The position numbers were made by a program, and so were the translations under genes. Shown here in pieces: positions 44,500 through 59,160 of a stretch of 64,000 nt of DNA. The notes below the pieces were generated by a model. That model searched no databases, was not told the origin of the DNA, and saw only the letters and a program-made list of their open reading frames with translations. The first letter of the stretch is position 1. Every line of letters starts with the position of its first letter. Source of the DNA: Blautia sp. (lineage in GTDB: Bacteria > Bacillota > Clostridia > Lachnospirales > Lachnospiraceae); NCBI GenBank assembly GCA_023667395.1, contig JAMPAC010000002.1, forward strand, positions 62,001 through 126,000, in the 5' to 3' direction.

Positions 44500-44574
44500 G
44501 ATTCTGCTGACGTGCAAGTAAAAGCCGGGTGGATATCCATCCGAGGCGAGCGACATAAAGAGAAGGAATCTGAT

Positions 44575-46440
44575 ATGAGAAAAACAGGAAGATTTATAGA
44601 CATTCCCACGAATCGGATCATTGCGTTGATCCTGATGGATATTATGGCGGTCATAGTGGCGTCGTTCGGGGCGCTGTATATCCGGTTTGAATTCAGCTTT
44701 GCAAATATTCCTGGAGAGTATATTACCAAGTTTGAACATATCATCCTGATCAATATTGTTGTTGCCCTGGCGTTTTTCGCGCTGTGGAAGCTGTATAAAA
44801 GTGTGTGGCGGTATGCCAGCGCCAATGAACTGATCAATATCATATTTGCCACCACATGCGCGGCAATTACCCAGACAACGCTGTGTTACGTGCTGGACCA
44901 GAAGATGCCCAGGAGTTATTATGTGCTTTACTGGTTCCTGCTGACAGTGCTGATCACCTGTATCCGTTTCGGATACCGTATCCTGAGGATCCTGAACAAT
45001 AAGAGGAACGACCTGACGGGCAGGAACAAAGGGGTCAATGTCATGCTGATCGGCGCTGGCGCCGCCGCCAACATGATCCTGAAAGAAATTGAGAACAGTT
45101 CTTATCTGAACCTGCGGGCAAAATGCATTGTGGATGACCAGGAGGGCTGCCATGGGAAACTGCTCCGCGGGGTGCCCATCGTCGGCGGCAGGGATAAGAT
45201 CATGGAAGCGGTAAAGGAGTATGGGATCGATGAGATCATATATGCGATCCCCTCGGCGGATGCCAGAACCAGACGGGAATTCCTGGATATCTGTAAGGAG
45301 ACGGGCTGTAAGATGCGCGCCCTGCCCGGCATGTACCAGCTAATTAACGGGGACGTATCTGTTGCCACGTTAAAAGAAGTTGAGATAGAAGACCTGCTGG
45401 GCAGGGAACCGATCCCCATCAATACGGAGGAAGTGCTGGGTTATGTCAGCGGAAAAGTAGTCATGGTCACAGGCGGGGGCGGCTCCATCGGAAGCGAATT
45501 GTGCAGGCAGATCGCGAACCATCGGCCCAAGCAGTTGATCATAGTGGATATCTATGAGAACAACGCCTATGATATCCAACAGGAACTGCTCTGGAAATAT
45601 CCTGCATTAGACCTGCAGGTACTGATCGCGTCTGTCAGGAATACGAACCGCATGAACAATATCTTTGAAAAATACAGGCCTGATATCGTATACCATGCCG
45701 CCGCCCATAAGCATGTGCCCCTGATGGAGACAAGCCCCAACGAGGCGATCAAGAACAACGTCATGGGAACTTACAAGACAGCGCAGGCGGCGGATAAATA
45801 CGGCGCGGAGAAATTTGTACTCATATCCACGGACAAAGCGGTAAATCCTACAAATATCATGGGAGCCTCCAAGAGGATCTGTGAGATGGTGATCCAGCTG
45901 ATGAACCAGAAATCCAGAACCAACTTTGTGGCAGTGCGGTTTGGGAATGTATTGGGAAGCAATGGCAGTGTGATCCCCCTGTTTAAGAAACAGATCGCGG
46001 AGGGAGGACCCGTGACAGTCACCCATCCAGATATCATACGTTATTTTATGACGATCTCGGAAGCTGTTTCCCTGGTGCTGCAGGCAGGGGCCTACGCAAA
46101 AGGCGGCGAGATTTTTGTGTTGGATATGGGTGAACCCGTGAAGATCCTGGATCTGGCAACCAATCTGATCAAGCTTTCCGGATATAAGGTCGGGGAAGAC
46201 ATAGAGATCAGGTTTACCGGACTGCGCCCCGGGGAAAAGATGTATGAAGAACTGCTGATGAATGAGGAAGGACTGAAAAAGACTGCCAATAAGATGATCT
46301 TTATTGGAAAGCCTATCGAATTTGATACGGAACTCTTTGAGAAACAGCTTAAGAAGCTGGGTGAGGACGCGAAGAAAGAGTCGGCGGATATCAGGAAGAA
46401 TGTGCGGGAGATCGTGCCTACTTATCATTATGAAGGGTAG
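44575..46440 (+). CDS. Membrane UDP-sugar 4,6-dehydratase (CapD/WbpM/PglF type)
   Basis: 621 residues. Four N-terminal membrane helices, a CoA-binding-like domain (about 150-260) and an extended SDR domain: nucleotide loop VTGGGGSIGSELCRQIANHR, STDKAVNPTNIMGASKRICE. The usual catalytic YxxxK is MGASK, as in WbpM/PglF relatives. It probably turns UDP-GlcNAc into the 4-keto-6-deoxy sugar needed for QuiNAc/FucNAc-type sugars. The ATG at 44575 has gagaagga. The following sugar transferase starts 10 bases downstream. Confidence 0.9.
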   Translation: MRKTGRFIDIPTNRIIALILMDIMAVIVASFGALYIRFEFSFANIPGEYITKFEHIILINIVVALAFFALWKLYKSVWRYASANELINIIFATTCAAITQTTLCYVLDQKMPRSYYVLYWFLLTVLITCIRFGYRILRILNNKRNDLTGRNKGVNVMLIGAGAAANMILKEIENSSYLNLRAKCIVDDQEGCHGKLLRGVPIVGGRDKIMEAVKEYGIDEIIYAIPSADARTRREFLDICKETGCKMRALPGMYQLINGDVSVATLKEVEIEDLLGREPIPINTEEVLGYVSGKVVMVTGGGGSIGSELCRQIANHRPKQLIIVDIYENNAYDIQQELLWKYPALDLQVLIASVRNTNRMNNIFEKYRPDIVYHAAAHKHVPLMETSPNEAIKNNVMGTYKTAQAADKYGAEKFVLISTDKAVNPTNIMGASKRICEMVIQLMNQKSRTNFVAVRFGNVLGSNGSVIPLFKKQIAEGGPVTVTHPDIIRYFMTISEAVSLVLQAGAYAKGGEIFVLDMGEPVKILDLATNLIKLSGYKVGEDIEIRFTGLRPGEKMYEELLMNEEGLKKTANKMIFIGKPIEFDTELFEKQLKKLGEDAKKESADIRKNVREIVPTYHYEG

Positions 46441-46450
46441 AGGAATGCGT

Positions 46451-47065
46451 ATGTATACAACTGTAAAAAGCATAGTGGACAGGCTCCTGGCGCTGATCGG
46501 CCTCGTTGTATTATCCCCGCTGCTCCTGCTCCTGGTCATTGCCATAAAACTGGATTCCAAAGGCCCCGTCCTGTTTCAGCAGAAAAGGGTGGGGATCCGC
46601 AAAACACATTTTCATATCCTGAAATTCAGGACCATGCGGGTGGATACGCCGAAAGACACTCCCACTCATCTGCTCCGGAATCCTGAGCAGTATATCACCA
46701 GGGTTGGAAAGTTCCTCCGCAGGACCAGCCTGGATGAACTGCCGCAGATCATAAATATCATCAAGGGAGACATGGCCATTGTGGGACCCAGGCCAGCCCT
46801 GTGGAACCAATATGACCTGATCGCGGAACGGGACAAGTATGGGGCAAACGATATCCTGCCGGGGCTCACCGGCTGGGCGCAGATCAATGGCAGGGATGAG
46901 CTTCCCATAGAGGTGAAAGCGAAACTGGACGGCGAATACGTGCGGAAAATGGGGCTAGGGATGGATATACGCTGCATCCTGGGAACCGTAGTCTCCGTGC
47001 TCCGCCATGAAGGCGTGGTGGAAGGCGGCACGGGCGCGATGGACAAAAATGTGGGGAAATCATGA
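46451..47065 (+). CDS. Initiating sugar transferase, intact copy A
   Basis: 204 residues. N-terminal reentrant helix (YTTVKSIVDRLLALIGLVVL) and the transferase motifs FQQKRVGIRKTHFHILKFRT, GKFLRRTSLDELPQIINIIK, GDMAIVGPRPALWNQ and ILPGLTGWAQINGRDELP. It resembles small WcaJ/WbaP-like phosphoglycosyltransferases. The start at 46451 has a gagga site; 46445 is possible. It is a close duplicate of the frameshifted copy at 55136. After its stop only scars of the epimerase and glycosyltransferase remain. Confidence 0.92.
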   Translation: MYTTVKSIVDRLLALIGLVVLSPLLLLLVIAIKLDSKGPVLFQQKRVGIRKTHFHILKFRTMRVDTPKDTPTHLLRNPEQYITRVGKFLRRTSLDELPQIINIIKGDMAIVGPRPALWNQYDLIAERDKYGANDILPGLTGWAQINGRDELPIEVKAKLDGEYVRKMGLGMDIRCILGTVVSVLRHEGVVEGGTGAMDKNVGKS

Positions 47066-47204
47066 TGAAAAGTTTCAGAAGAACAAAAGCAGATGTACTA
47101 TAAAGTCAATTCGCAGCTGACTGTGGAAAATGGGGGACTGCACAGCGCTGGCGGAGGGGATAGAACGTTGGATGAGATGGAGCGGTATGTGGGGTAGGAC
47201 AAGT
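47062..47204 (+). pseudogene. Deletion scar of epimerase plus WbuB-like glycosyltransferase genes
   Basis: About 140 bases made of three short blocks. Position 47067-47127 matches 55928-55988 inside the epimerase gene, 47127-47166 matches 57686-57725 and 47167-47204 matches 57814-57848 near the end of the WbuB-like gene. Missing DNA is about 185, 1700 and 88 bases. The first junction shares the bases gaaaag with both parents. Only a 13-codon start (MMKSFRRTKADVL) remains, so no functional product is expected. Confidence 0.85.
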
Positions 47205-47211
47205 AGTTCTT

Positions 47212-50019
47212 TTATTTGTTGGCATTATGTGTTTTATACAAGCTGTTGAACTTGATTACGAGAATCCTAATTTCATCGATTATGTCAGAATCGACTTGCG
47301 TCTTGGAAGAATTTTGGCATACTTTATCAGCCAGTTGATTTATTTGTTGTAGAAGAATGCCTGTCTCTGTGATGCCATCGTTAAACCATGCCGGATTTTG
47401 TTCGTATAATTCGACCAGGCGATGCATTATGTTCGAGAAAATGTATGTTAATTTAGGAGCGAAAGAGTTATTGTTTCCCGCAGATGAATAGACTAAAATA
47501 TTTAATGCTTCTGACAGAGTACCTGTGTTGTCAAATATGCTGTTTTTGGGGGTGGGGTCTCCCTGAAAATTGAAGTATTTTATATAGGGATTTGCGGAAT
47601 CGGTTATCTGACTTAAGGATTGTATGGTGTGTTCCCAAAATTTGTATATTTCCAAAGAAAGAGTAATTTTTTGAAAGTAAGTTTCGGTAGACGTATTTGC
47701 TTTCTTTAACTCCATTTTCATATTGCGATAAAATAACTCCACTTTTTGCATAGCGCTTTCGTGGTCAGGTTGTACGATAAACTTGCTATTTGTATCAATT
47801 TCACACAACACAATAAATAGGCTGTCAATGTCGATAATTTCGTGCTTTTGCCAGACGGTATCAACCAGGATATTATTAAAAAACAAATAAAGTAGACTCT
47901 TAAACGAGGGAAGACTTTCCAATATAGCTTTCCGCATAATTTTTTCCCCTTCTGTAATGCAGAACTGTCTTTGATATTCTGTCCATAGATCCATGGTCAG
48001 CACCTTGATTAACTTACGGGAAAATTCCAGAAATTCAGGGGTATTTGCTTTTAGGGAAGTGAAAGGAGCAGAAAGCTTGTCCATCAGTACTTCTATAAAA
48101 GTATTTTTTTCACTTTCCGTTTTATAATTTGTTTTAGCGTATGCGTTTAAGATTTCTTCATAATCCTCATAGGATTGAGTTATTTCACAATAAGCCTTTA
48201 CATGGTTTAAAATAATATTTTTTTCCAATAGTTCCTTGCGATATCTTCGTTCAAGTGCTTTCCTTTCAGAAAAATCCAGAGTATCCAACCGAAACATAAT
48301 ATAATTCAGTATTTCTGCACGTCTGCCTGGCATGGACGGTTTACAGGGAGAGATTTCCATGATAGCATTGATAATGACATCGTTATTTTTTTGAAAATAA
48401 GTATATATGTCCGTACAGGACTGCACATGGGAGTATCTTTCCGGCAATATATTTTTCAAAAATGATACGGTAAAGACCGCATTCATCCAGTCCTCTCTCA
48501 AATATTCCATACTGATCTGAGAAATTCCGGAACTGAGTTTCCTTAGATTTCGCTTAATGTCTTTAAAGTAGTTTTTCACTTTCCTGGGATTTGTCAGATT
48601 GTTTTGTATTTGTGAGGTGATTGCTGCTATGTCTTCCAAAGGCAGTTTTTGATTTTCCTTTTGGTAATTTAAATTGTGCAGCACATTCTGTGGGAATAAA
48701 TGAACCTGACTCCGGACTGCCACGGGGGATCTACCGTTTAAAATCAAGTCCGAAAATTCCATGACGGCTGCTTCGGTGAAAATTTCAGATAAATAAAAGT
48801 CGGAAATTTCATCATAACTGACAGGATGCAGATATAAGGTATAACTGATATATTTCTCCATGTAATCAAAAGGAAAGTCTTCTGTGGAGGAATCAGTTTT
48901 ATCTGTATGAAAAAGAGTCTTGTCTGCCAGAAAAAGTGTTTTGCAGTTAACCAGGTCGGTGCTTTCTCTAATTACTTTAAACATTTTTGACCGATATTCT
49001 GGTTCGCATCTGTCCAGGTCATCTATGATCAAATAGATTGTGCTGTTCAGTTTTTTTAATTTGTTGTTGAGGTACTGTTGGTTTCTGGCGTTTCTCTCGG
49101 ATCCAATACCCAGCATATGTGAAACTTTTCCCCACAATTCAACCCCGGCCTCTTCAAGTAACCCTGAGAAAGCAAGAAAATAGTTTTCTATGGAATGTTC
49201 CTTTTCTATAAAAATGTTGTTTTCACGTAAAATCTTTATTATTTGTTCGGAGATTTCCAGCATGATTTCCGATACGGATTTTTCGCTCCCTGCCATTATC
49301 CATACAAAATGATCTTTGGACATTCGATAGTCCAGTGCCAAGGCCTTTACAAAACTACTTTTACCCATTCCCCATTCGGCGGAAATCATCAGGGAATAGG
49401 GCTCGTCTTTCTGCTGCTTTAAAATGGGGATAAAACAATCCAGCTGCCTGCATCTGGTAGGAAACAGGTCAATATTGGGGAAATCAGATTCTTTTGTATG
49501 ATTGTTATTCTGTTTTTTTTCTTGCTTTTTTTGCCACTTTTCAAATAACAGGAGTATCATTTCAATGGCATCAATGGATATGATGCAGACAATGCCCTCC
49601 GCTATTTCCAATCGATCTGTTATTGCAAGCAAAAGCAACTCCAGAAAAAGGGCATACTGGAAATGTTTAAAAAATTGCATTGCCGGTTCAAATCTATTTC
49701 GGAATATAATGCACTGTATGCAGCCACATAGAAATAGGAAACCGCCGACGATTGTAAATACCATGGCATTAAAATAGCGATAATCAATTTTTAACTGTAT
49801 ACCCATGAGGTAAAGGAAGTTTCCAGCCCAAGCAATTCCTGTGGCATATAATGATTTATGTAACAGTTTATTTATGGCGTATCTTCGTTGGCCTGTCAAC
49901 AAAAGAATACTACATATGATTATAAGTAAAAAAATAAGTACACAGATTATAAATAGGGTGGACTTGTATGGATAATATTTTTCTATTATTAATTCGAAAA
50001 TACGTCTGAGGTTATGCAT
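47212..50019 (-). CDS. Membrane KAP-family P-loop NTPase
   Basis: 935 residues on the minus strand. About four to five membrane helices in the first 165 residues, then a linker of asparagine and lysine. A P-loop domain starts near 185: Walker A SAEWGMGKSSFVKAL (about 213-227) and Walker B with the KAP hallmark IYLIIDDLDRCE (about 328-339). The rest (about 450-935) is helical with no known domain. KAP NTPases are membrane-associated STAND-like ATPases; one member, PifA, excludes phage. Has its own promoter. An unrelated function is equally possible. Low GC compared with the flanks. Confidence 0.85.
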   Translation of the reverse strand: MHNLRRIFELIIEKYYPYKSTLFIICVLIFLLIIICSILLLTGQRRYAINKLLHKSLYATGIAWAGNFLYLMGIQLKIDYRYFNAMVFTIVGGFLFLCGCIQCIIFRNRFEPAMQFFKHFQYALFLELLLLAITDRLEIAEGIVCIISIDAIEMILLLFEKWQKKQEKKQNNNHTKESDFPNIDLFPTRCRQLDCFIPILKQQKDEPYSLMISAEWGMGKSSFVKALALDYRMSKDHFVWIMAGSEKSVSEIMLEISEQIIKILRENNIFIEKEHSIENYFLAFSGLLEEAGVELWGKVSHMLGIGSERNARNQQYLNNKLKKLNSTIYLIIDDLDRCEPEYRSKMFKVIRESTDLVNCKTLFLADKTLFHTDKTDSSTEDFPFDYMEKYISYTLYLHPVSYDEISDFYLSEIFTEAAVMEFSDLILNGRSPVAVRSQVHLFPQNVLHNLNYQKENQKLPLEDIAAITSQIQNNLTNPRKVKNYFKDIKRNLRKLSSGISQISMEYLREDWMNAVFTVSFLKNILPERYSHVQSCTDIYTYFQKNNDVIINAIMEISPCKPSMPGRRAEILNYIMFRLDTLDFSERKALERRYRKELLEKNIILNHVKAYCEITQSYEDYEEILNAYAKTNYKTESEKNTFIEVLMDKLSAPFTSLKANTPEFLEFSRKLIKVLTMDLWTEYQRQFCITEGEKIMRKAILESLPSFKSLLYLFFNNILVDTVWQKHEIIDIDSLFIVLCEIDTNSKFIVQPDHESAMQKVELFYRNMKMELKKANTSTETYFQKITLSLEIYKFWEHTIQSLSQITDSANPYIKYFNFQGDPTPKNSIFDNTGTLSEALNILVYSSAGNNNSFAPKLTYIFSNIMHRLVELYEQNPAWFNDGITETGILLQQINQLADKVCQNSSKTQVDSDIIDEIRILVIKFNSLYKTHNANK

Positions 50020-50081
50020 ATTATTTCACCATTTGTATCTGATTGTGGGTTGCTGTAAGATTATAAATACCTTGATAGGTT

Positions 50082-50111
50082 ATTATACCAAAATACAGCC
50101 AAAAACTTCAA
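50082..50111 (-). promoter_or_regulatory. Sigma-A-type promoter for the KAP NTPase gene
   Basis: On the minus strand, TTGAAG at 50111-50106, an 18-base spacer and a perfect TATAAT at 50087-50082, about 60 bases before the start codon. Confidence 0.7.
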
Positions 50112-50135
50112 GAGAAATTCCTGACTGTATTTTGG
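50088..50135 (-). terminator. Perfect 11-bp inverted repeat between the two minus-strand genes
   Basis: Arms ccaaaatacag (50088-50098) and ctgtattttgg (50125-50135) with a 26-base loop. It follows the stop codon of the DUF2971-like gene by a few bases and overlaps the promoter of the NTPase gene. Without a T tract it is a weak terminator; a regulator site is the alternative. Confidence 0.4.
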
Positions 50136-50143
50136 GGAACTGC

Positions 50144-53100
50144 TTAAAGCCTGTTCAATCCTGACCAGAGTACCTGCTTTACTCTGCCGGTACTTTTCGC
50201 CCAGACGGACAATTCCCTGACTTGAGATAATTCTACTTTACTGCCCAGAATCAGGGTCAGGTTGTCCAACTTCTTCTCTACATTGATGTAAAGCCATGGA
50301 ATGGGACTGGAAGCGGTATTGTCCACTTCCGGATTCTGGGAACAGCGGAGCATCCGTACTTCTTCCTCATACTCGTAGTTTGCGGACTTGAACAGGAAGC
50401 GGATTTCATTCAAACGATCCACAATGAAAGCCCTGACCACTCCGGCGGCTTCCGGAGCAATCTGATTATCCTCTTCCAACAGTATTGTTTCGATTCTTGT
50501 AAGTTTCTGCAGAATATTAGGAATGCATGTTTTGATCGTATTTACATCATTGATTGAACTTCCTTTTGTATCTTCAGCTTTGAAACTTTTGAACATACAA
50601 TCTTCTTTTCCCGCAGACAACTGGCGCTCGTCCACATAGACAATTCGATATAATGCATTTTCCTCTGCTTCATCGTCAAGGATAGAATAGTAGTTCTTGT
50701 CCACAAGGTCAAAGAAAGTTTGATCAAACCCAATGATACAGCCTTTTTCCTTATCGGCATAATTACTCCACAGACCGAAATTATTTTTGTTCATGGAGAA
50801 GCTTGCGATATAGACATCACTGTCAAAGGAGGAAATATCGTCAATGTCTCTGTAACCGGCACTATTATCAATATATTTTCTAATAACTTCGTTATATGTC
50901 TGGGAGTTGATCGCAGTTCCCGACTTATCTGAAGAGTTATCAAAGCTGAAAATATTCTCACATATTTTTTTAAACATTGTTCCTTCGCTTGCATCGTTCA
51001 TGCGGGCGGCATTGGACATGCGGAATCGGGGCTCCCCTGCTTCTCCTGCGTCCCCTGCTGTTTTGGGGAGAATGCCTTTCAGGGTGCTTAACCGGGTGTA
51101 TTGACATATAATGGGTTTCGCGTTATTTGTGGTTTTGTCTTTTGGTTCCCTGTTTTCGAAATCAGCAAGATTAGCGTAGGTGACGCGTAACTGCGTTTTC
51201 ACTCGCAGGATGTCGCCATACAGTTCCACAATAGTAGCCAGCAGTTTTGCCCGGGTGGACAGCTTGATGGAGTGGAAGCTTTGGTTGACCATGAGTTTCA
51301 TGAATGCCTGATTTGTACCGTTTTCAAGCAGGCGCACATGGCAGAACAGTTCCAGAAAAGCCCGTTCCAGTTCATAATCAATATTTTTGCTGGCATCAAG
51401 CAAGTTCTCCTCCTGAGCCAGTATGATCCGCGCTACTTCGATATAACTTTTCATTGTAATTGGCGTAGTAGAAGACACAAGGCCTAACAGCAGCTGCCTT
51501 TTTTGCTGTATGAACTCTGGCGATGATTTGGTGAACTGCATGCAGTAATTCACTTTGCTGATTACCCAACAACTGTATGTCAGATAATCCATGGGACGGC
51601 TTTCCAATATTTTACCGAAAGAGTTACTTAGGTTCTTCCACTTTTCACGTATGGCGTTTTCGTCATCCTGCCTGAATCCTCGCTTGATCTGGTTCATATT
51701 TCGCAGGTTTTCCAAAAATTGCATATAAATATCAGAGTTGTTATTTAAGGCACATATCTCCCGGATCAAATCTGATATCTCGCAGGAATACGTTTCCGGA
51801 CTATCTATCTGCAGATAAGTCCAGCAATCATACAGGTTGTGAAGAATTCTTTTCTGCACGAGACTGTTGACAGCATGCCATTTTACAGTATAGGGAGGTG
51901 TTATTTTGGTATCAGGTTTCAACCTGGAGTTGATGATTGTTTTTAACTGTGTTAAGGCCATGTGTATATTGGCAGTCAGTTCTCCAGGGGAATCGATTTC
52001 TGCTGTCGCTTTAATTTGAATAGGGGTCTTTTCATCCTGTACTAAATATGTCAGCAGATCTATGTAAACATTCAGAGCCTCCTTATATCGGTCTTCTACG
52101 ATCAGACACCAGCCAAGGTCTACCTCCGTGCGGATTTCATGCTGTCTCTTTGATCTCTCATTATCCAGTTTTAGCAGAGACTTGTGAATATTGGTCAGGC
52201 TGTCGATAGCAGCCAGATATTTTCCGCGTTTGATCTGACACTGGGCTTCCAGATATGCGGCTTTCAACTCCAGACTATCCCACTGTATGGCTCTGCTGCT
52301 TCTGATATGGGAAAATAATTTTTCTGCTTCCTCATATTTTTCCTGGGTAAATAAGTATCTGGCATACAGAAACAGCCATTTATAGTTGGATTTCTCAGGC
52401 TCGTCAGGGTATATATAGGCAGAATCCTGGTTTGGTGTATAACAGTATTGGGTGATACTTTCCGCCTGTTCTGCCAGCCCCGATTCCAGATAGCATTTAT
52501 ATTGATTGTATTCGGCAAATTTGTTCCCTTTCAGGGTTTCGCCCGTCAAAATGGAAATAGAGGCATTATGGTAATTCGGTTTCTTCAGACAGACGGCAAG
52601 ATTATTTTGTGCGTCCGCGTTTTTTAATGCAATGTTTCCTGTTTCGGATTTAGTGCATACATCATGAATCTGTCCGATCAGCGATTGGGGTACATCCATG
52701 GAATTTGGTTCCAGTTCGAGCAAATCAGTCAGGGAATGTTCTATTTCCTCTGTGGGTGCGTCTTTTTCGTGATCCTTAATGCGGTCGATGATACCCAATA
52801 CCAGGAAAACGCCGACTGCACGCCGCACCCAGAAATTCCCATCCAACGAACCGTTAAAATCCACGCGATCCCTGCAGGAAATGCCGGCCTGGAGCAGAGC
52901 CTGTAATATGTAATCTTCAAACAAATGATCGACCATGTTCCGGTCATTTTGTGAAAACAATTTCACGGAGAACCCCTTTATTTGATTCGTGTAATCCATT
53001 TGAGGCAGCTGCCCCACGAAATGCCTGACCATATTTTTTTCCTTAGCATTGTCTAATGAGTTAATGCAGAAGCCTATAAGATCCGCGCATTCCCGGGCGG

Positions 53101-53812
53101 CCAGTTCATATTCCCGCTGAAAACGGTATATCTGTGCGATATTGAGCCAGGCACTGGCATAGATGCGTGCCAGGATACCGTCTATGGGCGCCTTTTTATC
53201 ATGTAAGGTCTCTATTGCCTTTTTAATCTCCTGGAACAGCATAATAGCCCGCCAATAGGTGGCGTCCACTCTTAAAGGATCTTTTTCTGCAATATCCCGG
53301 AAATATTTTGCCTTATTCAGCAGGAACAGGAACATGATCACAAAATCTTCTGTTTGGTCGATAACATTTTCCAGGTTGGTCAATTCAAAATAGGCAGTAT
53401 CCTGTTCCAGATAATATTTTGCTTTCTCGTGTTCGGCATCTGCAGACAGATAACGTTCTGTCCTAAATTGTCCCAGACGCCGGTAAGCGCTTCCCAGGAC
53501 TAAGTCCCTCAGCTTTTTGTCTTGGCCTTGGCAGGTCTTATACTTTTCTTCTTGTTCGACTTTTCCAATCAGAGCTTTGAGGTATTGCTCTATTTGGGCA
53601 TTGCTTTCACGGAAATGATCATGATAAAAAATTTGAATGAACGCGTAAAAACTCTTTAACTCTGTCCTGATCTGGTTAGAATCAGTTTCCTGATACAGGG
53701 AATTGTTAAACCACCAATTCTGAATCTTATTTTTCCATAAGTTGCTTTCCAACCAGCAGTCCAGTTCCACAGCAGGGTTGGGGGCGTTTTCTTTAGTATT
53801 TGTTTGTACCAT
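50144..53812 (-). CDS. Large TPR-like protein with DUF2971-like C-terminal domain
   Basis: 1222 residues, no signal peptide or membrane segment. Residues about 1-890 are helical with TPR-like stretches (YLFTQEKYEEAEKLFSHI, LGWCLIVEDRYKEALNVYID). Residues about 898-1222 resemble DUF2971: ICQYTRLSTLKGIL, a NAARMNDASEG loop, IASFSMNKNNFGLWSNYAD, KEKGCIIGFD and late YEYEEEVRML. DUF2971 is an uncharacterised domain. A good aaggaga site precedes the ATG. The KAP NTPase starts 125 bases downstream on the same strand, so the two form a pair. The combination suggests a sensor (TPR) with an unknown effector, an inference only. Confidence 0.75.
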   Translation of the reverse strand: MVQTNTKENAPNPAVELDCWLESNLWKNKIQNWWFNNSLYQETDSNQIRTELKSFYAFIQIFYHDHFRESNAQIEQYLKALIGKVEQEEKYKTCQGQDKKLRDLVLGSAYRRLGQFRTERYLSADAEHEKAKYYLEQDTAYFELTNLENVIDQTEDFVIMFLFLLNKAKYFRDIAEKDPLRVDATYWRAIMLFQEIKKAIETLHDKKAPIDGILARIYASAWLNIAQIYRFQREYELAARECADLIGFCINSLDNAKEKNMVRHFVGQLPQMDYTNQIKGFSVKLFSQNDRNMVDHLFEDYILQALLQAGISCRDRVDFNGSLDGNFWVRRAVGVFLVLGIIDRIKDHEKDAPTEEIEHSLTDLLELEPNSMDVPQSLIGQIHDVCTKSETGNIALKNADAQNNLAVCLKKPNYHNASISILTGETLKGNKFAEYNQYKCYLESGLAEQAESITQYCYTPNQDSAYIYPDEPEKSNYKWLFLYARYLFTQEKYEEAEKLFSHIRSSRAIQWDSLELKAAYLEAQCQIKRGKYLAAIDSLTNIHKSLLKLDNERSKRQHEIRTEVDLGWCLIVEDRYKEALNVYIDLLTYLVQDEKTPIQIKATAEIDSPGELTANIHMALTQLKTIINSRLKPDTKITPPYTVKWHAVNSLVQKRILHNLYDCWTYLQIDSPETYSCEISDLIREICALNNNSDIYMQFLENLRNMNQIKRGFRQDDENAIREKWKNLSNSFGKILESRPMDYLTYSCWVISKVNYCMQFTKSSPEFIQQKRQLLLGLVSSTTPITMKSYIEVARIILAQEENLLDASKNIDYELERAFLELFCHVRLLENGTNQAFMKLMVNQSFHSIKLSTRAKLLATIVELYGDILRVKTQLRVTYANLADFENREPKDKTTNNAKPIICQYTRLSTLKGILPKTAGDAGEAGEPRFRMSNAARMNDASEGTMFKKICENIFSFDNSSDKSGTAINSQTYNEVIRKYIDNSAGYRDIDDISSFDSDVYIASFSMNKNNFGLWSNYADKEKGCIIGFDQTFFDLVDKNYYSILDDEAEENALYRIVYVDERQLSAGKEDCMFKSFKAEDTKGSSINDVNTIKTCIPNILQKLTRIETILLEEDNQIAPEAAGVVRAFIVDRLNEIRFLFKSANYEYEEEVRMLRCSQNPEVDNTASSPIPWLYINVEKKLDNLTLILGSKVELSQVRELSVWAKSTGRVKQVLWSGLNRL

Positions 53813-53852
53813 CTCTATCTCCTTTAAAACGTTATTTGTTAACTATAATAAT

Positions 53853-53858
53853 ATTATA
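53853..53858 (-). promoter_or_regulatory. Candidate -10 for the DUF2971-like gene
   Basis: TATAAT on the minus strand about 40 bases before the start codon. A matching -35 is not clear. Confidence 0.45.
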
Positions 53859-53868
53859 CAACTGATTA

Positions 53869-54102
53869 AAACGCAAGAACTTTACAGAAAGAGTTTTTCA
53901 ATGAAAATGGTCAATTCCGTTTTGAGGGATGCCGGGAGTATCTGACTGCAGAAAGCATTTATGATCAATTGAGCGGTATGCCGGGTGAGAAGCCTGGGCA
54001 GACAGAAAAGCTTTTGGGCGGTATAGATGGCAATGTTGTTAGGCGGCTGATTGAAATTACGGCACAAAAGTGTTGTGGTAACCGCACATGGTTAATCCCA
54101 TG
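53869..54102 (+). pseudogene. Possible gene remnant without start codon
   Basis: An open frame of about 77 codons on the plus strand, read as QKEFFNENGQFRFEGCREYL, TAESIYDQLSGMPGEKPGQT, EKLLGGIDGNVVRRLIEITA and QKCCGNRTWLIP, then TGA. It has a protein-like composition but no start codon at its beginning and no recognised family. It may be the 3' end of a gene lost during the rearrangement of this region, or chance. Confidence 0.3.
54075..54096. promoter_or_regulatory. Dyad site a (weak member)
   Basis: tggtaaccgc-ac-atggttaatc has the same 10-2-10 layout as the two stronger sites. Half-site symmetry is 5 of 10. It lies upstream of the DUF2971-like gene. Its right part continues into a stretch repeated at 54960-54994. 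Confidence 0.5.
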
Positions 54103-54120
54103 AAATGATAGCACCGAAAT
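54087..54120 (+). repeat. Direct repeat, left copy
   Basis: About 34 bases here recur at 54960-54994 in the same orientation; the best-kept part reads atgaaatgatagcacc here and atgaaacgatagcacc there. The two copies bracket the XRE pseudogene. Confidence 0.6.
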
Positions 54121-54153
54121 TGATATACCCCAAAGAACACCAAGACAAGCAGT

Positions 54154-54175
54154 GGTTAACCGTACACGGTTTACC
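54154..54175. promoter_or_regulatory. Dyad site b (operator-like palindrome)
   Basis: ggttaaccgt-ac-acggtttacc has arms matching at 9 of 10 positions. It sits about 340 bases upstream of the DUF2971-like gene and about 35 bases after the end of the XRE pseudogene. Confidence 0.6.
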
Positions 54176-54209
54176 GCGGTAATATTTCAGACTGTTTGGC
54201 AATCTGTGT

Positions 54210-54923
54210 TTATCTTTTCTGTACCCGTACAAGATCATATCCATCCCTTAAAATTCGGATCATACTCTCCCTGGCTGCCTCTTCCAGTAGCCCTAATACG
54301 TAATTCAGTTCCCTCCGCAGCCCCTTAGAGCCTTTCAGGATAAAGGCAGACGATATACGGAATTGATGGTACATTTTCCACAGGCTCTCGCTGTCCGGAA
54401 GCTGTCGTCCCATTTCCGGGTTTCGCAGCTTCTTGATATCCATTTCCCCAACAAACCAGCTATTTTTGCTTGGGTATATCCATGATGATGCTGCAGACAG
54501 TAAAAAATATCTGGATGGACTTTGGCGTTTTCAGATAGATATTGCAGGCATTCCAGTTGTCTGCCAGCCTGCTCAAAGGAGGAGTCGCAGGAATTTCGGG
54601 AAAAGATGCGATTGTAGAGCCGGGCAGAATCGAAGGGATAGATACGACACTTAAAAGATATAATAATGCTTCATAAACGTACTTGAAAGGTTCTGGAAAG
54701 TCCAGTATATCGTAGGGCTGTCTCCGGTAAATACATAGTAGACATACATATCGGTTGTGCAAAGATATTTAAGTTTAGAATACGGAAGACATATGTATCC
54801 TGTTTCTGCCCTGTTCAAAGCGTTTTGTGGTGTTTTTAAGCAGCGGCAAAGCTGCTGTGTCAGACCACATCGTATGCGTTTCTCCTTTAATCTCAGTGTG
54901 AAGTTTCTGTAATTACTGTTCAT
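54210..54923 (-). pseudogene. Decayed XRE-type regulator gene
   Basis: On the minus strand the frame from 54923 starts MNSNYRNFTLRLKEKRIRCG and LTQQLCRCLKTPQNALNRAE, an XRE HTH domain, then KLKYLCTT and VFTGDSP. Downstream sequence jumps frames: FKYVYEALLYLLSV in another frame, then YTQAKIAGLLG, then DIKKLRNPEMGRQLPDSESL and YHQFRISSAFIL, which looks like a second HTH. Several frameshifts are needed to join them, so the gene is most likely dead. It may once have controlled the adjacent module through the palindromes. The N-terminal 90 residues are still open and could be made. Confidence 0.6.
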
Positions 54924-54940
54924 GGGAATTCTCCGTTTGA

Positions 54941-54976
54941 TTCATAGAGTTAATTGTGCACGGTTAACTCTATGAA
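54941..54976. promoter_or_regulatory. Dyad site c: long perfect palindrome before the XRE gene
   Basis: Arms ttcatagagttaa and ttaactctatgaa are exact reverse complements of 13 bases around a 10-base centre, and the core shares the ggttaac/gtgcac pattern with sites a and b. It is only about 18 bases upstream of the XRE start codon on the minus strand, the place of an autoregulatory operator. Confidence 0.7.
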
Positions 54977-54994
54977 ACGATAGCACCAGAAATT
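54960..54994 (+). repeat. Direct repeat, right copy
   Basis: Same-orientation partner of 54087-54120, differing at several transitions and one inserted base. It includes the right arm of dyad site c. Confidence 0.6.
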
Positions 54995-55051
54995 CAGTGT
55001 TTTAGCATCTGTTTATGGCAAAAGTTCTGGATTTTATATTTCAGTTTCTCG

Positions 55052-55080
55052 TTGTAATATGGCAGGATGCGTGGTAAACT
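55052..55080 (+). promoter_or_regulatory. Sigma-A-type promoter for the copy B operon
   Basis: TTGTAA, a 17-base spacer and TAAACT with an extended TGg, 55 bases before the frameshifted sugar transferase. It would drive the intact epimerase and glycosyltransferase genes. Confidence 0.6.
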
Positions 55081-55135
55081 AAAGAAATGGGAAGAAATGT
55101 TGCCTGCAAGCGATATCATATTTTGAGGAATGCCT

Positions 55136-55741
55136 ATGTACACAACCATAAAGAGTATCATAGACAGAGTTTTGGCAGTGACAGGTCTGATCCTGTTATC
55201 CCCGTTGTCCCTGTCCTTGGCCATTGCCATAAAACTGGATTCCAAAAGCCCCGTCCTAAAAGGGTGGAGATCTGCAAAACATATTTTTATATCCTGAAAT
55301 TCAGGACTATGCGGGTGGATACGCCGAAAGACATTCCCATTCATCTGCTCCGGAATCCTGAGCAGCATATCACCAGGGGTGGGAAAGTTCCTCCGCAAGA
55401 CCAGCTTGGACGAACTGCCGCAGATCATAAATATCATCAAGGGAGACATGGGCATTGTGGGATCCAGGCCGGCTCTGTGGAACCAATATGACCTGATCGC
55501 GGAACGGGACAAGTATGGGGCAAACGATATCCTGCCGGGGCTCACCGGCTGGGCGCAGATCAATGGCAGGGATGAGCTTCCCATAGAGGTGAAAGCGAAA
55601 CTGGATGGCGATTATGTGTGGAAAATGGGGTTGGGGATGGATATACGCTGCATCCTGGGAACCGTAGTCTCCGTGCTCCGCCATGACGGCGTGGTGGAAG
55701 GCGGCACAGGCGCCATGGACAAAAATGTGGGGAAATCATGA
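55136..55741 (+). pseudogene. Initiating sugar transferase, frameshifted copy B
   Basis: The same gene as copy A. A 10-base deletion after AIKLDSKSPVL (about 55247, the bases gtttcagcag of copy A are missing) puts the reading into another frame, which meets a TGA about 40 bases on. One inserted G near 55379 restores the frame, so VGKFLRKTSLDELPQIINII and the rest to the stop are again readable. The lost segment holds FQQKRVGIR and the catalytic region. GPRP has become GSRP. The last 120 residues are open from a GTG at 55379, but they lack the membrane helix. Confidence 0.88.
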
Positions 55742-56625
55742 TGAAAAAAGTGCTGATCACAGGCGCCAACAGCTATATAGGCACCTCCTTTGAAAACTGG
55801 ATAAAAGAAAACTGCGGCGAGATTGCCATCGATACATGGGATATGAAGGGCGATGCATGGAAAGAAAAGTCCTTTCATGGTTTTGACGCGGTGTTCCATG
55901 TGGCGGGGATCGCCCATGCGGACGTGGGAAAAGTTTCAGAAGAACAAAAGCAGATGTACTATAAAGTCAATTCGCAGCTGACTGTGGACTGTGCCCGGAA
56001 AGCCAAAGAAGAGGGTGTCGGGCAGTTTGTTTTCATGAGCAGCATCATCGTGTATGGAGAGAGCGCCGGAATCGGGCAGCCCAGGGTGATCGCGAAGGAT
56101 ACGCCTCTCGCTCCGGCCAATTTTTATGGGGACAGTAAGGTGAAAGCAGAAGAAGGCCTGCAGAAACTGGCGGACAGCCACTTCAAGGTTGTGATCCTGC
56201 GGCCTCCCATGATCTATGGCAAGGGTTCCAGGGGAAATTATCCCCTGTTGGCTAAGATGGCTCGTAAACTCCCTGTTTTTCCTGAGGTCAGGAATGAGAG
56301 GAGCATGTTATATATAGGGAATCTGTGCAAATTTATCAGCCTTATGGTCTTAAATGAAGAGGCTGGGGTCTTCTTCCCACAGAACAGGGAATATGTGAGG
56401 ACCAGCGAGATGGTAACCCATATCGCCGGGGCGCACCGGAAGAAAATACATTTGACAAAGGCCTTCAATCCGATTTTGAAGTTGATGGGAAAAATGGGAG
56501 GAAAACCGGGAGGATTGGTGAACAAAGCTTTCGGCAATATGGTGTATGAAAAATCCATGAGCGAATACAAGGAAGAATATCAATTGTATGACCTGCAGGA
56601 ATCTGTCCGGCTGACCGAACAATAG
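55738..56625 (+). CDS. NAD-dependent sugar epimerase/reductase (SDR family)
   Basis: 295 residues. Nucleotide loop KKVLITGANSYIGTSFENWI at the start, VFHVAGIAHADVG and the catalytic FYGDSKVKAEEGLQK with YxxxK. The substrate is probably a UDP-4-keto sugar made by the dehydratase at 44575, as such enzymes sit next to WbuB-like transferases in QuiNAc/FucNAc clusters. Its ATG overlaps the transferase stop by 4 bases. It is the only intact copy; copy A has only a scar. Confidence 0.9.
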   Translation: MMKKVLITGANSYIGTSFENWIKENCGEIAIDTWDMKGDAWKEKSFHGFDAVFHVAGIAHADVGKVSEEQKQMYYKVNSQLTVDCARKAKEEGVGQFVFMSSIIVYGESAGIGQPRVIAKDTPLAPANFYGDSKVKAEEGLQKLADSHFKVVILRPPMIYGKGSRGNYPLLAKMARKLPVFPEVRNERSMLYIGNLCKFISLMVLNEEAGVFFPQNREYVRTSEMVTHIAGAHRKKIHLTKAFNPILKLMGKMGGKPGGLVNKAFGNMVYEKSMSEYKEEYQLYDLQESVRLTEQ

Positions 56626-56635
56626 AGGTGCGATA

Positions 56636-57844
56636 ATGGGAAAACATATACTGGTCATTTCCCAGTATTTTTATCCGGAAGAGTTCCGGATAAACGATAT
56701 ATGTGAGGAATGGGTAAAAAGAGGATACGAAGTCACGGTCGTGACAGGGATCCCCAATTATCCGCAGGGAAGATTCTTTGACGGATATGGGTGGGGAAAG
56801 AAGAGAAAAGAAGTCTATAAAGGCATCCGCATTGTCAGGCTGCCCATTATTCCACGGGGAGAGCGGGCAGCGACCCTGATCCTGAACTATTTTTCCTTTG
56901 TGGCATCCGGTTTTTTCTGGAAAGTTTTCACCGGGATACGGGCGGATAAGGTGTTTGTTTTTGAAGTTTCCCCCATGACCCAGGCGCTGCCGGGCGTGTG
57001 GTATGCCCGGAAACGGAAAATTCCATGTTATATCTATGTGCAGGATCTGTGGCCGGAAAATGTGGAGTTTGTTGCAGGCATCCACAACAGACGGGTCATC
57101 GGAGCCATTGATAAGATGGTGAATTATATTTACCGGAACTGTACCGGAATATTTGCCACATCGCCAAGCTTTGTGAGGAAAATTGAGGAACGGGGCAGCG
57201 CATGGAACGGGAAGAACAGTAAGGTAGTGTACTGGCCGCAGTATGCGGAAGAATTTTACCGTCCCATGGGGAAAAAAGTCCTGGAAAAAGACGCCTGCTT
57301 TCAGGTGGTTTTTACCGGAAACATAGGATATGCGCAGGGATTGGATATTCTCCCTGCCACGGCGGAAATCCTGAAAAAGAAAGGGATCGGCTGCAGATTC
57401 ATGATCGTGGGGGACGGAAGATACAGGGAGGAACTGGAGCGTGAAATCGCATCCCGAAATGTGGCTGACATGTTCCTTATGCCGGGAAGAAAGCCGCCCC
57501 GGGAGATTCCGGAAATTCTTGCGGGGAGCGATGTGGCATATATTTCCTTTGCCAACAATCTTTTATTTGAGAATACGATCCCGGCGAAACTACAGTCCTA
57601 TATGGCATGCGGGATTCCCATACTGGCTTCCGCAACGGGCGAAACGAAACGGATCATTGACGAGGCACGCTGCGGCATAGCCTGTAAAATGGGGGACTGT
57701 GTAGCGCTGGCGGAGGGGATAGAACATTTTATGGAGATGCCCTGGGAGGAACGTTCCCGGATGGGACAGAATGCGTTGGGGTATTCGGAGAGACACTTTA
57801 ATAAGAGGAAGCTGTTGGATGAGATGGAGCGGTATGTGGGGTAG
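56636..57844 (+). CDS. WbuB-like family 4 glycosyltransferase
   Basis: 402 residues. The start HILVISQYFYPEEFRINDIC plus YEVTVVTGIPNYPQGRFFDG is typical of WbuB, a proposed N-acetylfucosamine transferase. The GT4 C-terminal half has VFTGNIGYAQGLDILPATAE, MPGRKPPREIPEILAGSDVA and YMACGIPILASATGETKRII. It would add the second sugar of the unit. It ends six bases before the stub of the NTPase gene. Copy A holds only two short pieces. Confidence 0.9.
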   Translation: MGKHILVISQYFYPEEFRINDICEEWVKRGYEVTVVTGIPNYPQGRFFDGYGWGKKRKEVYKGIRIVRLPIIPRGERAATLILNYFSFVASGFFWKVFTGIRADKVFVFEVSPMTQALPGVWYARKRKIPCYIYVQDLWPENVEFVAGIHNRRVIGAIDKMVNYIYRNCTGIFATSPSFVRKIEERGSAWNGKNSKVVYWPQYAEEFYRPMGKKVLEKDACFQVVFTGNIGYAQGLDILPATAEILKKKGIGCRFMIVGDGRYREELEREIASRNVADMFLMPGRKPPREIPEILAGSDVAYISFANNLLFENTIPAKLQSYMACGIPILASATGETKRIIDEARCGIACKMGDCVALAEGIEHFMEMPWEERSRMGQNALGYSERHFNKRKLLDEMERYVG

Positions 57845-57858
57845 GACAATTAACTCTT

Positions 57859-57950
57859 TTATCTGTTGGCATTATGTTCAAGAAAGTGTATGATAATTTA
57901 GGGGGCAAAGGGTTATTCCCTTTTGTGGATGAATAGGTTAAAATTTTTAG
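57859..57950 (-). pseudogene. 3' stub of the KAP NTPase gene
   Basis: On the minus strand this reads KILTYSSTKGNNPLPPKLSY and TFLNIM, matching residues about 840-870 of the intact NTPase (NILVYSSAGNNNSFAPKLTY, IFSNIM), and then jumps to the NAN-R end. The junction lies in gcattatg, which occurs twice in the intact gene (47222 and 47424), so about 202 bases were lost by recombination between 8-base repeats. Nothing upstream of the stub is left. Confidence 0.85.
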
Positions 57951-57975
57951 TTTATTTTGATGAAATTGGCGTTTA

Positions 57976-58004
57976 TTGACAGAGAATAGAATGTGTGCTA
58001 TAGT
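57976..58004 (+). promoter_or_regulatory. Strong sigma-A-type promoter for the second cassette
   Basis: TTGACA, a 17-base spacer and TATAGT, 38 bases before the start codon at 58042. It starts the low-GC glycan cassette. Confidence 0.82.
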
Positions 58005-58041
58005 GAGATGGTTAATTCGGGGGTGTGAAAGAATAATTTAA

Positions 58042-59160
58042 ATGAAAATTCTTGAAATTAATTCCGTTTGTGGAATAGGAAGCACAGGCAGGATAGCCGT
58101 AGAGATTGCGAAAGAGTATGAACAGAGCGGAAACAAGGTGGTAATTGCATACGGAAGGGGACAGACGTCTGCGGAAGGGGAAAAATATGCATACCATATT
58201 GGAAATGAAGTGGATGTCAGAATACATGGCATGATCTCCAGGCTTTTTGATCTGCATGGCTTTGCGTCAAAAAGGGCAACAAAGCAGTTCTTAAAATGGG
58301 CCGACCAGTATGACCCGGATTTGCTATGGCTTCATAACATACATGGTTATTATATCAATATCGGACTTTTGTTTCAATGGATAAAAAGCAGACCACAGAT
58401 GCAGGTACAATGGACTTTGCATGATTGTTGGGCATTTACGGGACATTGTGCTCATTTTACGTTTGCGCAGTGCGGCAAGTGGAAAAAGCAATGTGAACAT
58501 TGTCCGCAAAAAAGAAGTTATCCTAAAAGCTTCCTGATAGATTGCAGTTTGAAAAACTATAATAAGAAACGGGAACTATTTTGTGGCGTAAAGAATATGA
58601 CGCTGATCACTCCTTCCCAGTGGCTTGCAGATCTTGTGAAAGAAAGCTTTTTAGGAGAGTATCCTGTAGAAGTCAGATATAATATTGTTGATACCACTGT
58701 ATTCAAGCCAACAGACAGCAGCTTCCGACGCGATCATGGACTTGAGGGCAAGATAGTTATTCTTGGTGTGGCCAGTGTATGGAACGAACAGAAAGGCTTG
58801 CAGGACTTTATTGCATTATCCAGAATGTTAGATGAACGGTATATTATTGTGCTTATTGGGTTGAACAGCAAACAGATTAAAGCTTTGCCGGAATCCATTA
58901 TAGGTTTAGGTAAGATGAATGATATGACCCAGCTGGCGGCGGCTTATTCCGCTGCTGATTTTTTTGTAAATCCCAGCAGGGAGGAAACATTCGGATTAAC
59001 TACTGTAGAAGCGTGTGCTTGCGGGACAACAAGTATTGTATACCAAGGGAGTGCGAGTGAAGAAGTTGCAATGAAATATGGTGGGAAAACAATACCTGCA
59101 GGAGTGGAATACATTTATGAGGCAGTGACAGGAAGAAAGTATATGGCTGTGGGAGTCTGA
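58042..59160 (+). CDS. Family 4 glycosyltransferase
   Basis: 372 residues. The N-terminal half starts MKILEINSVCGIGSTGRIAV and has WTLHDCWAFTGHCAHFTFAQ; the C-terminal half has VILGVASVWNEQKGLQDFIA and PSREETFGLTTVEACACGTT. It is a GT4 enzyme of the cassette behind the strong promoter. The ribosome site is weak (gaaagaa). The gene is AT-rich compared with the polysaccharide genes before 47 kb. Confidence 0.9.
   Translation: MKILEINSVCGIGSTGRIAVEIAKEYEQSGNKVVIAYGRGQTSAEGEKYAYHIGNEVDVRIHGMISRLFDLHGFASKRATKQFLKWADQYDPDLLWLHNIHGYYINIGLLFQWIKSRPQMQVQWTLHDCWAFTGHCAHFTFAQCGKWKKQCEHCPQKRSYPKSFLIDCSLKNYNKKRELFCGVKNMTLITPSQWLADLVKESFLGEYPVEVRYNIVDTTVFKPTDSSFRRDHGLEGKIVILGVASVWNEQKGLQDFIALSRMLDERYIIVLIGLNSKQIKALPESIIGLGKMNDMTQLAAAYSAADFFVNPSREETFGLTTVEACACGTTSIVYQGSASEEVAMKYGGKTIPAGVEYIYEAVTGRKYMAVGV

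Follow-up and report, generated by a model that had tools for sequence, protein, structure and literature searches.

We analyzed two large neighboring genes in a 64,000-nucleotide stretch of a Blautia sp. draft genome (assembly GCA_023667395.1, contig JAMPAC010000002.1, positions 62,001 to 126,000 of the forward strand), hereafter called the window. One of them, P0001, encodes a KAP-family NTPase, and the other, P0002, a long protein ending in a DUF2971-type domain; both lie within a locus for exopolysaccharide (EPS) synthesis (Table 1). A sequence-only reading had described two large minus-strand genes here and had proposed that they form a two-gene system, possibly for defense. Both open reading frames (ORFs) were found, each open from an ATG start and encoding 935 and 1222 amino acids. 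P0001 is the sole KAP_NTPase match and P0002 the sole DUF2971 match of this draft genome (E 0.001). The locus holds two real genes, and its local history can be interpreted.

Domains of the two proteins

P0001 matched the Pfam family KAP_NTPase (PF07693) with E 5.9e-24 and 85.3 bits (cut-off 20), covering profile positions 11–287 of 293. Its Walker A motif is AEWGMGKS at residue 214, with Ala where four of five relatives carry Gly, and its Walker B motif is YLIIDDLDR at residue 329. Hydropathy peaks above 1.5 are confined to residues 31–150; by hydropathy alone, all such peaks precede Walker A in P0001 and in five relatives. The earlier description of a KAP NTPase with both Walker motifs is borne out by the Pfam match and the motifs, and hydrophobic segments are present. 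The long C-terminal region had no Pfam match above cut-off. Among PADLOC models, PifA was matched by residues 200–358 (4.6e-9), and P0001 also matched PDC-S20 (1.5e-8).

P0002 matched Pfam DUF2971 (PF11185) at residues 1014–1154 (E 2.3e-6, 29.3 bits against a cut-off of 22), in agreement with the DUF2971-like ending previously assigned to this 1222-residue protein. Its long helical part had also been called TPR; a TPR-like nature is likely, but the label is not secured because all TPR-type Pfam hits fell under their cut-offs (the best was ANAPC3 at 0.0017, with TPR_7 at 0.013, and TPR_2 and others were also below). The PADLOC candidate PDC-S31 was matched at 4.8e-10, though only over model positions 54–145 of 259.

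The P0002 domain was aligned with 33 viral-contig DUF2971 sequences (alignment A6, 34 sequences, which omits two of the 35 DUF2971 ORFs of the viral contigs, one set from L074 and L100). P0002 shares the residues invariant across the viral sequences, which in its numbering are D940, W1015, Y1018, G1024, K1142, E1149, E1151, R1153 and G1190; N939, A1019, K1023, G1028, F1029 and Y1059 are near-invariant. D940, W1015, Y1018, G1024, K1142 and the E1149-x-E1151-x-R1153 motif look like putative catalytic or ligand-binding residues. Profile and structure-database searches of both proteins had been suggested by the sequence-only reading: the KAP and DUF2971 Pfam profiles were matched, whereas DUF2971 found no solved structure at E 10 and no PDB hit, and searches of solved structures overall returned nothing useful.

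Profile–profile comparison by HHalign gave DarT as the best of six targets for DUF2971, with a score of 22.2 that none of 200 column shuffles reached, yet a probability of only 2.8%; the alignment falls at the start of both domains. The unrelated KAP family, used as a control, scored 20.8 (0/40 shuffles reaching this score), three EPS families 15.7–16.1 (3–9 of 60 shuffles) and FRG 11.7 (10/54 shuffles). DarT and FRG, both ADP-ribosyltransferase (ART) domains, also failed to match each other, so the ART test lacks power; in the two tests involving FRG, 52 and 54 of 60 shuffles were kept and those without output were dropped. DUF2971 as an FRG-type ART has no profile support. The domain may be ART-like, but this is a lead only, because the unrelated KAP family scored nearly as high as DarT and because of the DarT–FRG failure.

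Co-occurrence and neighborhoods of relatives

A search with PF11185 found 78 places, spread over 67 of the 319 Lachnospiraceae genomes searched, the present one included. No KAP gene was found in the surroundings of the 77 others (72 fetched stretches of about 12 kb, shorter at contig ends, and five loci already in our set), as scanned with a custom hidden Markov model (HMM) built from P0001 and weaker hits, not with Pfam's. In three of the 72 fetched stretches a custom HMM detected no DUF2971 ORF; these three remain in the KAP count. DUF2971 was likewise absent near all five other full-length KAP relatives, four from Lachnospiraceae (L012, L013, L057 and L058) and one from a Priestia plasmid (L071). 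KAP was also absent near seven P0002 relatives (L014, L060, L061, L062, L063, L066 and L017) and at two streptococcal plasmid DUF2971 loci (L069 and L070). Among viral-contig loci, 34 of 39 have a DUF2971 ORF, and two of the 34 (L093 and L097) also carry a KAP gene, encoding a far shorter protein (493 and 498 amino acids), with a resolvase gene between the two. The sequence-only reading would have the genes recur as neighbors across genomes; with 0/77 and 0/5 the two-gene reading is unsupported, and the pairing was rejected as a conserved two-gene system. Within the sampled loci it is not one.

Both families are patchy in distribution. P0001 found matches in 6 of 146 relatives, some of them weak and the present genome included, and a three-sequence KAP profile in 14 of 397 family genomes (again including this one; mostly weak matches to other KAPs). 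P0002 found 4 of the 146 relatives and 18 of the 397 family genomes, its own genome and weak hits included. Streptococcus plasmids, a satellite phage and the 34 viral loci carry DUF2971 relatives. Viral scans with P0002, A1, A4 and a DarT protein found no relatives, and that with A5 found one; the phage collection yielded no match to P0002, to its domain or to the domain of L066.

Nearness of the relatives to known defense genes had also been raised as a check, and such genes do appear among their neighbor ORFs, taken mechanically as those of at least 120 amino acids. Around seven P0002-relative loci, 65 of 77 ORFs were scanned, seven DUF2971 ORFs and five scanned earlier being excluded; the PADLOC matches listed include PDC-S05, a methyltransferase and a restriction enzyme of type II, and AbiEi and AbiEii with two members each. 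One AbiE pair is found in L066, at 4.4 kb upstream of the P0002 relative; in that scan of 10 proteins, 8 gave no match. Around the KAP relatives, 51 of 67 ORFs were scanned (excluding four KAP ORFs and 12 from L015 and L016), and the matches listed include type I-C Cas3, Cas5c, WYL, PD-T4-4_A, HEC-02A and mads_3; the cas genes of L058 and PD-T4-4_A of L057 were located by protein length and domain, not scanned singly. The relatives in L060, L061 and L014 lie among metabolic genes, with GH20, glutamate synthase and carbamoyl-phosphate synthase within two genes. The neighborhood evidence leans towards defense, and a defense role for both genes is plausible.

Several individual neighborhoods can be described. 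The Streptococcus plasmid DUF2971 proteins (1223 amino acids at L069 5229–8900 and 783 amino acids at L070 6573–8924) are encoded immediately before xerS, and upstream there are three hypothetical genes whose lengths agree between the two plasmids. The relative at MK448418.1 12686–13477 belongs to a streptococcal satellite phage (Javan305) and lies close to the end of its record. One viral contig stretch carries two distinct DUF2971 ORFs on opposite strands (L091 5649–6320 and 7755–8723). In L062 (8553–19901) a 769-residue DUF2971 protein is encoded beside Hsp70-like, GrpE-like and HD/CYTH-domain genes, and proteins of 1112 and 1114 residues (L064 and L065) are paired with genes resembling that Hsp70-like gene. 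In L071 (6531–10319) the Priestia plasmid KAP relative, of 960 residues, has an FRG-domain neighbor on the opposite strand. In genome G493 (L057 7857–17536) the KAP relative follows a PMT_2-type glycosyltransferase gene by 42 nt; a GtrII-type glycosyltransferase precedes these at a greater distance, and an AAA_15 ATPase is encoded downstream, which is a second connection of this KAP to genes for surface sugars.

The EPS locus and its history

Table 1. Features of the locus; positions are those of the window
Feature	Position	Strand	Remarks
PS2, Polysacc_synt_2 nucleotide-sugar enzyme, left flank	44512..46440	+	PF02719, E 1.4e-124; before T in L250
T, EPS sugar transferase, intact	46440..47065	+	PF02397, E 1e-58; start in ORF list 46304, overlapping PS2
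Epimerase relic, 61 nt	47067..47127	+	100% identical to 55928-55988
Glycosyltransferase 3'-end relic and following sequence	47128..47230	+	86-94% identical to pieces at 57683-57877
P0001, KAP gene	47212..50019	-	935 aa; hydrophobic N-terminal segments, KAP P-loop NTPase at aa 199-489
Promoter-like TTGAAG-18-TATAAT	50111-50082	-	overlaps hairpin, within 124-nt gap
Hairpin, 22 pairs, 4-nt loop	50088..50135	-	-35.5 kcal/mol, z -7.8, 0/200 shuffles
P0002, TPR-like/DUF2971 gene	50144..53812	-	1222 aa; DUF2971-type domain set at roughly aa 880-1222
Broken helix-turn-helix regulator copy	54210..54923	-	XRE-type by weak HTH_3 hit, E 0.046
T', decayed second sugar transferase	55125..55741	+	two gap runs relative to T
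E, NAD-dependent epimerase, intact	55738..56625	+	PF01370
GT, glycosyltransferase group 1, intact	56636..57844	+	PF00534
Second KAP gene relic	57859..57949	-	stop region and aa 839-865, meeting at a short repeat
g58042, next EPS gene	58042..59160	+	46%-identity relative directly after GT in L250

The polysaccharide block that had been described as intact on both sides of the pair is present, but judged by the gene order of L250 it is one EPS operon, split by the insert and partly duplicated around it. In L250, PS2, T, E and GT succeed one another and a relative of g58042 comes next; T-E-GT is also contiguous in L251 and L253, while L252 has another order. No KAP or P0002 match was found in any of these four loci. 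In three relatives the unit is contiguous and free of the insert. The view of the region as a variable polysaccharide locus stands. Some part of the unit's DNA was matched in 79 of the 146 relatives.

T' and T are identical at 560 of 616 aligned bases, the identity being 89% over 55125–55747 and 97% over the last 272 nt. The glycosyltransferase relic on the left extends into the KAP stop region, and the KAP 3' relic to the right of GT has 59% amino acid identity to P0001 over 27 residues. The T-E-GT unit has apparently been tandemly duplicated around the insert (46440–58042) and has decayed reciprocally, so that each gene survives intact once. We infer as the simplest account that a KAP-containing stretch inserted after GT, that T-E-GT-KAP would then have been duplicated in tandem, and that one copy of each gene would then have been lost. 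DNA like that of the broken regulator occurs in 6 of the 146 genomes, all of the same genus; intact relatives of 231–246 amino acids were found at four loci, one of them in the present genome (contig C111, L260).

The pair had been noted for its lower GC, and at 36% and 43% it does fall below the left side, mostly 49–56%. Low GC was rejected as a mark of a cassette, since three EPS genes at 59.2–62.6 kb are equally low (35.5–38.9%) and the pair is not set apart by it.

The hairpin between the two genes was the single occurrence in a pattern search of the window. It looks local, since predictions for the 130 nt that precede KAP in four relatives gave nothing comparable.

Interpretation and known systems

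The reading that we favor, at about an even chance, is a proximity association of two candidate anti-phage genes that spread independently and met in a recombination-prone EPS locus. Independence is argued by the lack of pairing in the sampled loci, by the patchy spread, and by the hairpin and promoter-like site between the genes. The reading also draws on the PADLOC matches of both proteins and of neighbor ORFs, on the relatives among metabolic genes, on plasmids and at viral loci, and on the two frames having stayed open beside decayed duplicates. P0001 would probably be a membrane-anchored KAP NTPase that responds to infection at the membrane, like PifA or Tmn, by ATP-driven assembly or membrane disturbance. 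P0002 may be a one-protein sensor-effector, in which the long helical TPR-like part would sense an infection cue and then free the C-terminal DUF2971 domain, with a presumably abortive outcome. In a narrower version, which we regard as unlikely, P0002 is an immune sensor-effector encoded by a single gene, and its DUF2971 domain is an unrecognized DarT-like NAD-dependent ADP-ribosyltransferase or NADase. If that were so, a little-studied and widespread family would make up a new class of effectors, and the EPS locus would be a hotspot of recombination at which such genes gather.

Several points weigh against independent defense genes. The two genes are on the same strand 124 nt apart, and co-transcription is possible. 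The promoter-like site in the gap is by itself weak evidence, as 10 kb of the region hold 33 such sites where 22.3 would be expected. Many of the fetched stretches stop at contig ends. The PADLOC neighbor families are the first 25 of 214 for the P0002 set and the first 25 of 54 for the KAP set; their counts are inflated by overlapping models and are not gene counts, because one gene can match many models. As a control, 41 other genes of the window matched 14 PADLOC families, including RecD, mads, PsyrT, NsnB and several PDC models. The duplication history comes from one draft assembly, where repeats can mislead and assembly error is possible. Lastly, the location of KAP in an EPS locus here and behind a PMT_2-type gene in G493 makes a polysaccharide role conceivable.

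Among the rival explanations, it is improbable that the genes are leftover mobile-element cargo with no present function. Gene relics lie all around, an integrase adjoins the KAP gene of G288, and xerS adjoins the streptococcal DUF2971 genes; yet both frames, 935 and 1222 codons long, are open with Walker motifs and DUF2971 invariants kept, although the neighboring duplicates have decayed, and no mobile-element domain was found in the five ORFs scanned (P0001, P0002, T and two regulator-relic ORFs; smaller ORFs were not scanned).

Less probable again is a genuine two-gene defense module in which the TPR/DUF2971 protein would be both sensor and effector, gated or powered at the membrane by the KAP NTPase. 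The adjacency of two open genes on one strand, each the sole match of its family in the draft genome, would suit such a module, as would the KAP and DUF2971 genes within a few kb on two viral contigs and the FRG-domain gene beside the Priestia KAP relative, FRG being an ART-superfamily domain according to PMC9503650. Set against this are the counts of 0/77 and 0/5, the different size of the viral-contig KAPs and the resolvase gene in between, the hairpin and promoter-like site separating P0001 from P0002, and the failure of DUF2971 to match the FRG profile.

Least probable of the three is a polysaccharide-linked membrane function, in which KAP, with or without P0002, would affect EPS assembly, export or phage-receptor display: KAP does lie inside an EPS operon, with its 3' relic behind a second copy of the same glycosyltransferase, and follows PMT_2- and GtrII-type glycosyltransferase genes in another genus (G493), but its strand is opposite to the operon, T-E-GT lacks KAP in L250, L251 and L253, EPS unit DNA is far more widely matched than KAP (79/146 against 6/146, some weakly), and elsewhere KAP is beside ABC-transporter-like genes (G028 and G066; read from sequence), a WYL regulator (G005) or an integrase (G288).

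On the favored reading of two independent candidate defense genes, the locus is an example of large accessory genes settling in a surface-polysaccharide operon and staying open through apparent duplication and reciprocal decay. DUF2971 is frequent (67/319 Lachnospiraceae genomes and 34 viral loci), yet it is hardly treated in the literature that we searched, where the domain is scarcely named and PF11185 and PDC-S31 are unmentioned; with the few invariant residues listed above, its activity can be tested directly. The C-terminal domain of P0002 matches DUF2971, PDC-S31 and phrog_1762 each. Most of the 78 Lachnospiraceae places have open frames of roughly 220–480 amino acids, whereas P0002 and a few relatives (about 720–1220 amino acids) have an extra long N-terminal part.

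PifA, encoded by plasmid F, blocks phage growth. PifA and Tmn share with P0001 a KAP-family P-loop NTPase with membrane segments. Tmn is described in PMC11846954 as a KAP NTPase that has two transmembrane domains of an unusual kind and inhibits several phages. Background on ART domains, on PDC genes and on KAP in other contexts is given in PMC10907252, PMC10853773, PMC9503650 and PMC11514479. QatA, of qatABCD, has a predicted KAP NTPase domain too, and its mutation or deletion affects defense to a limited degree, according to PMC12424860. P0001 matched QatA weakly in PADLOC and NCBIfam, and its membership in qatABCD was rejected, as the NCBIfam QatA score was 15.2 bits against a cut-off of 600 and the 14 PADLOC families of the 41 other window genes (E 1e-10) included no Qat model. 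P0001 seems to be set apart from PifA and Tmn by architecture: its hydrophobic segments are N-terminal, at residues 31–150, before Walker A at residue 214, and a long C-terminal region follows.

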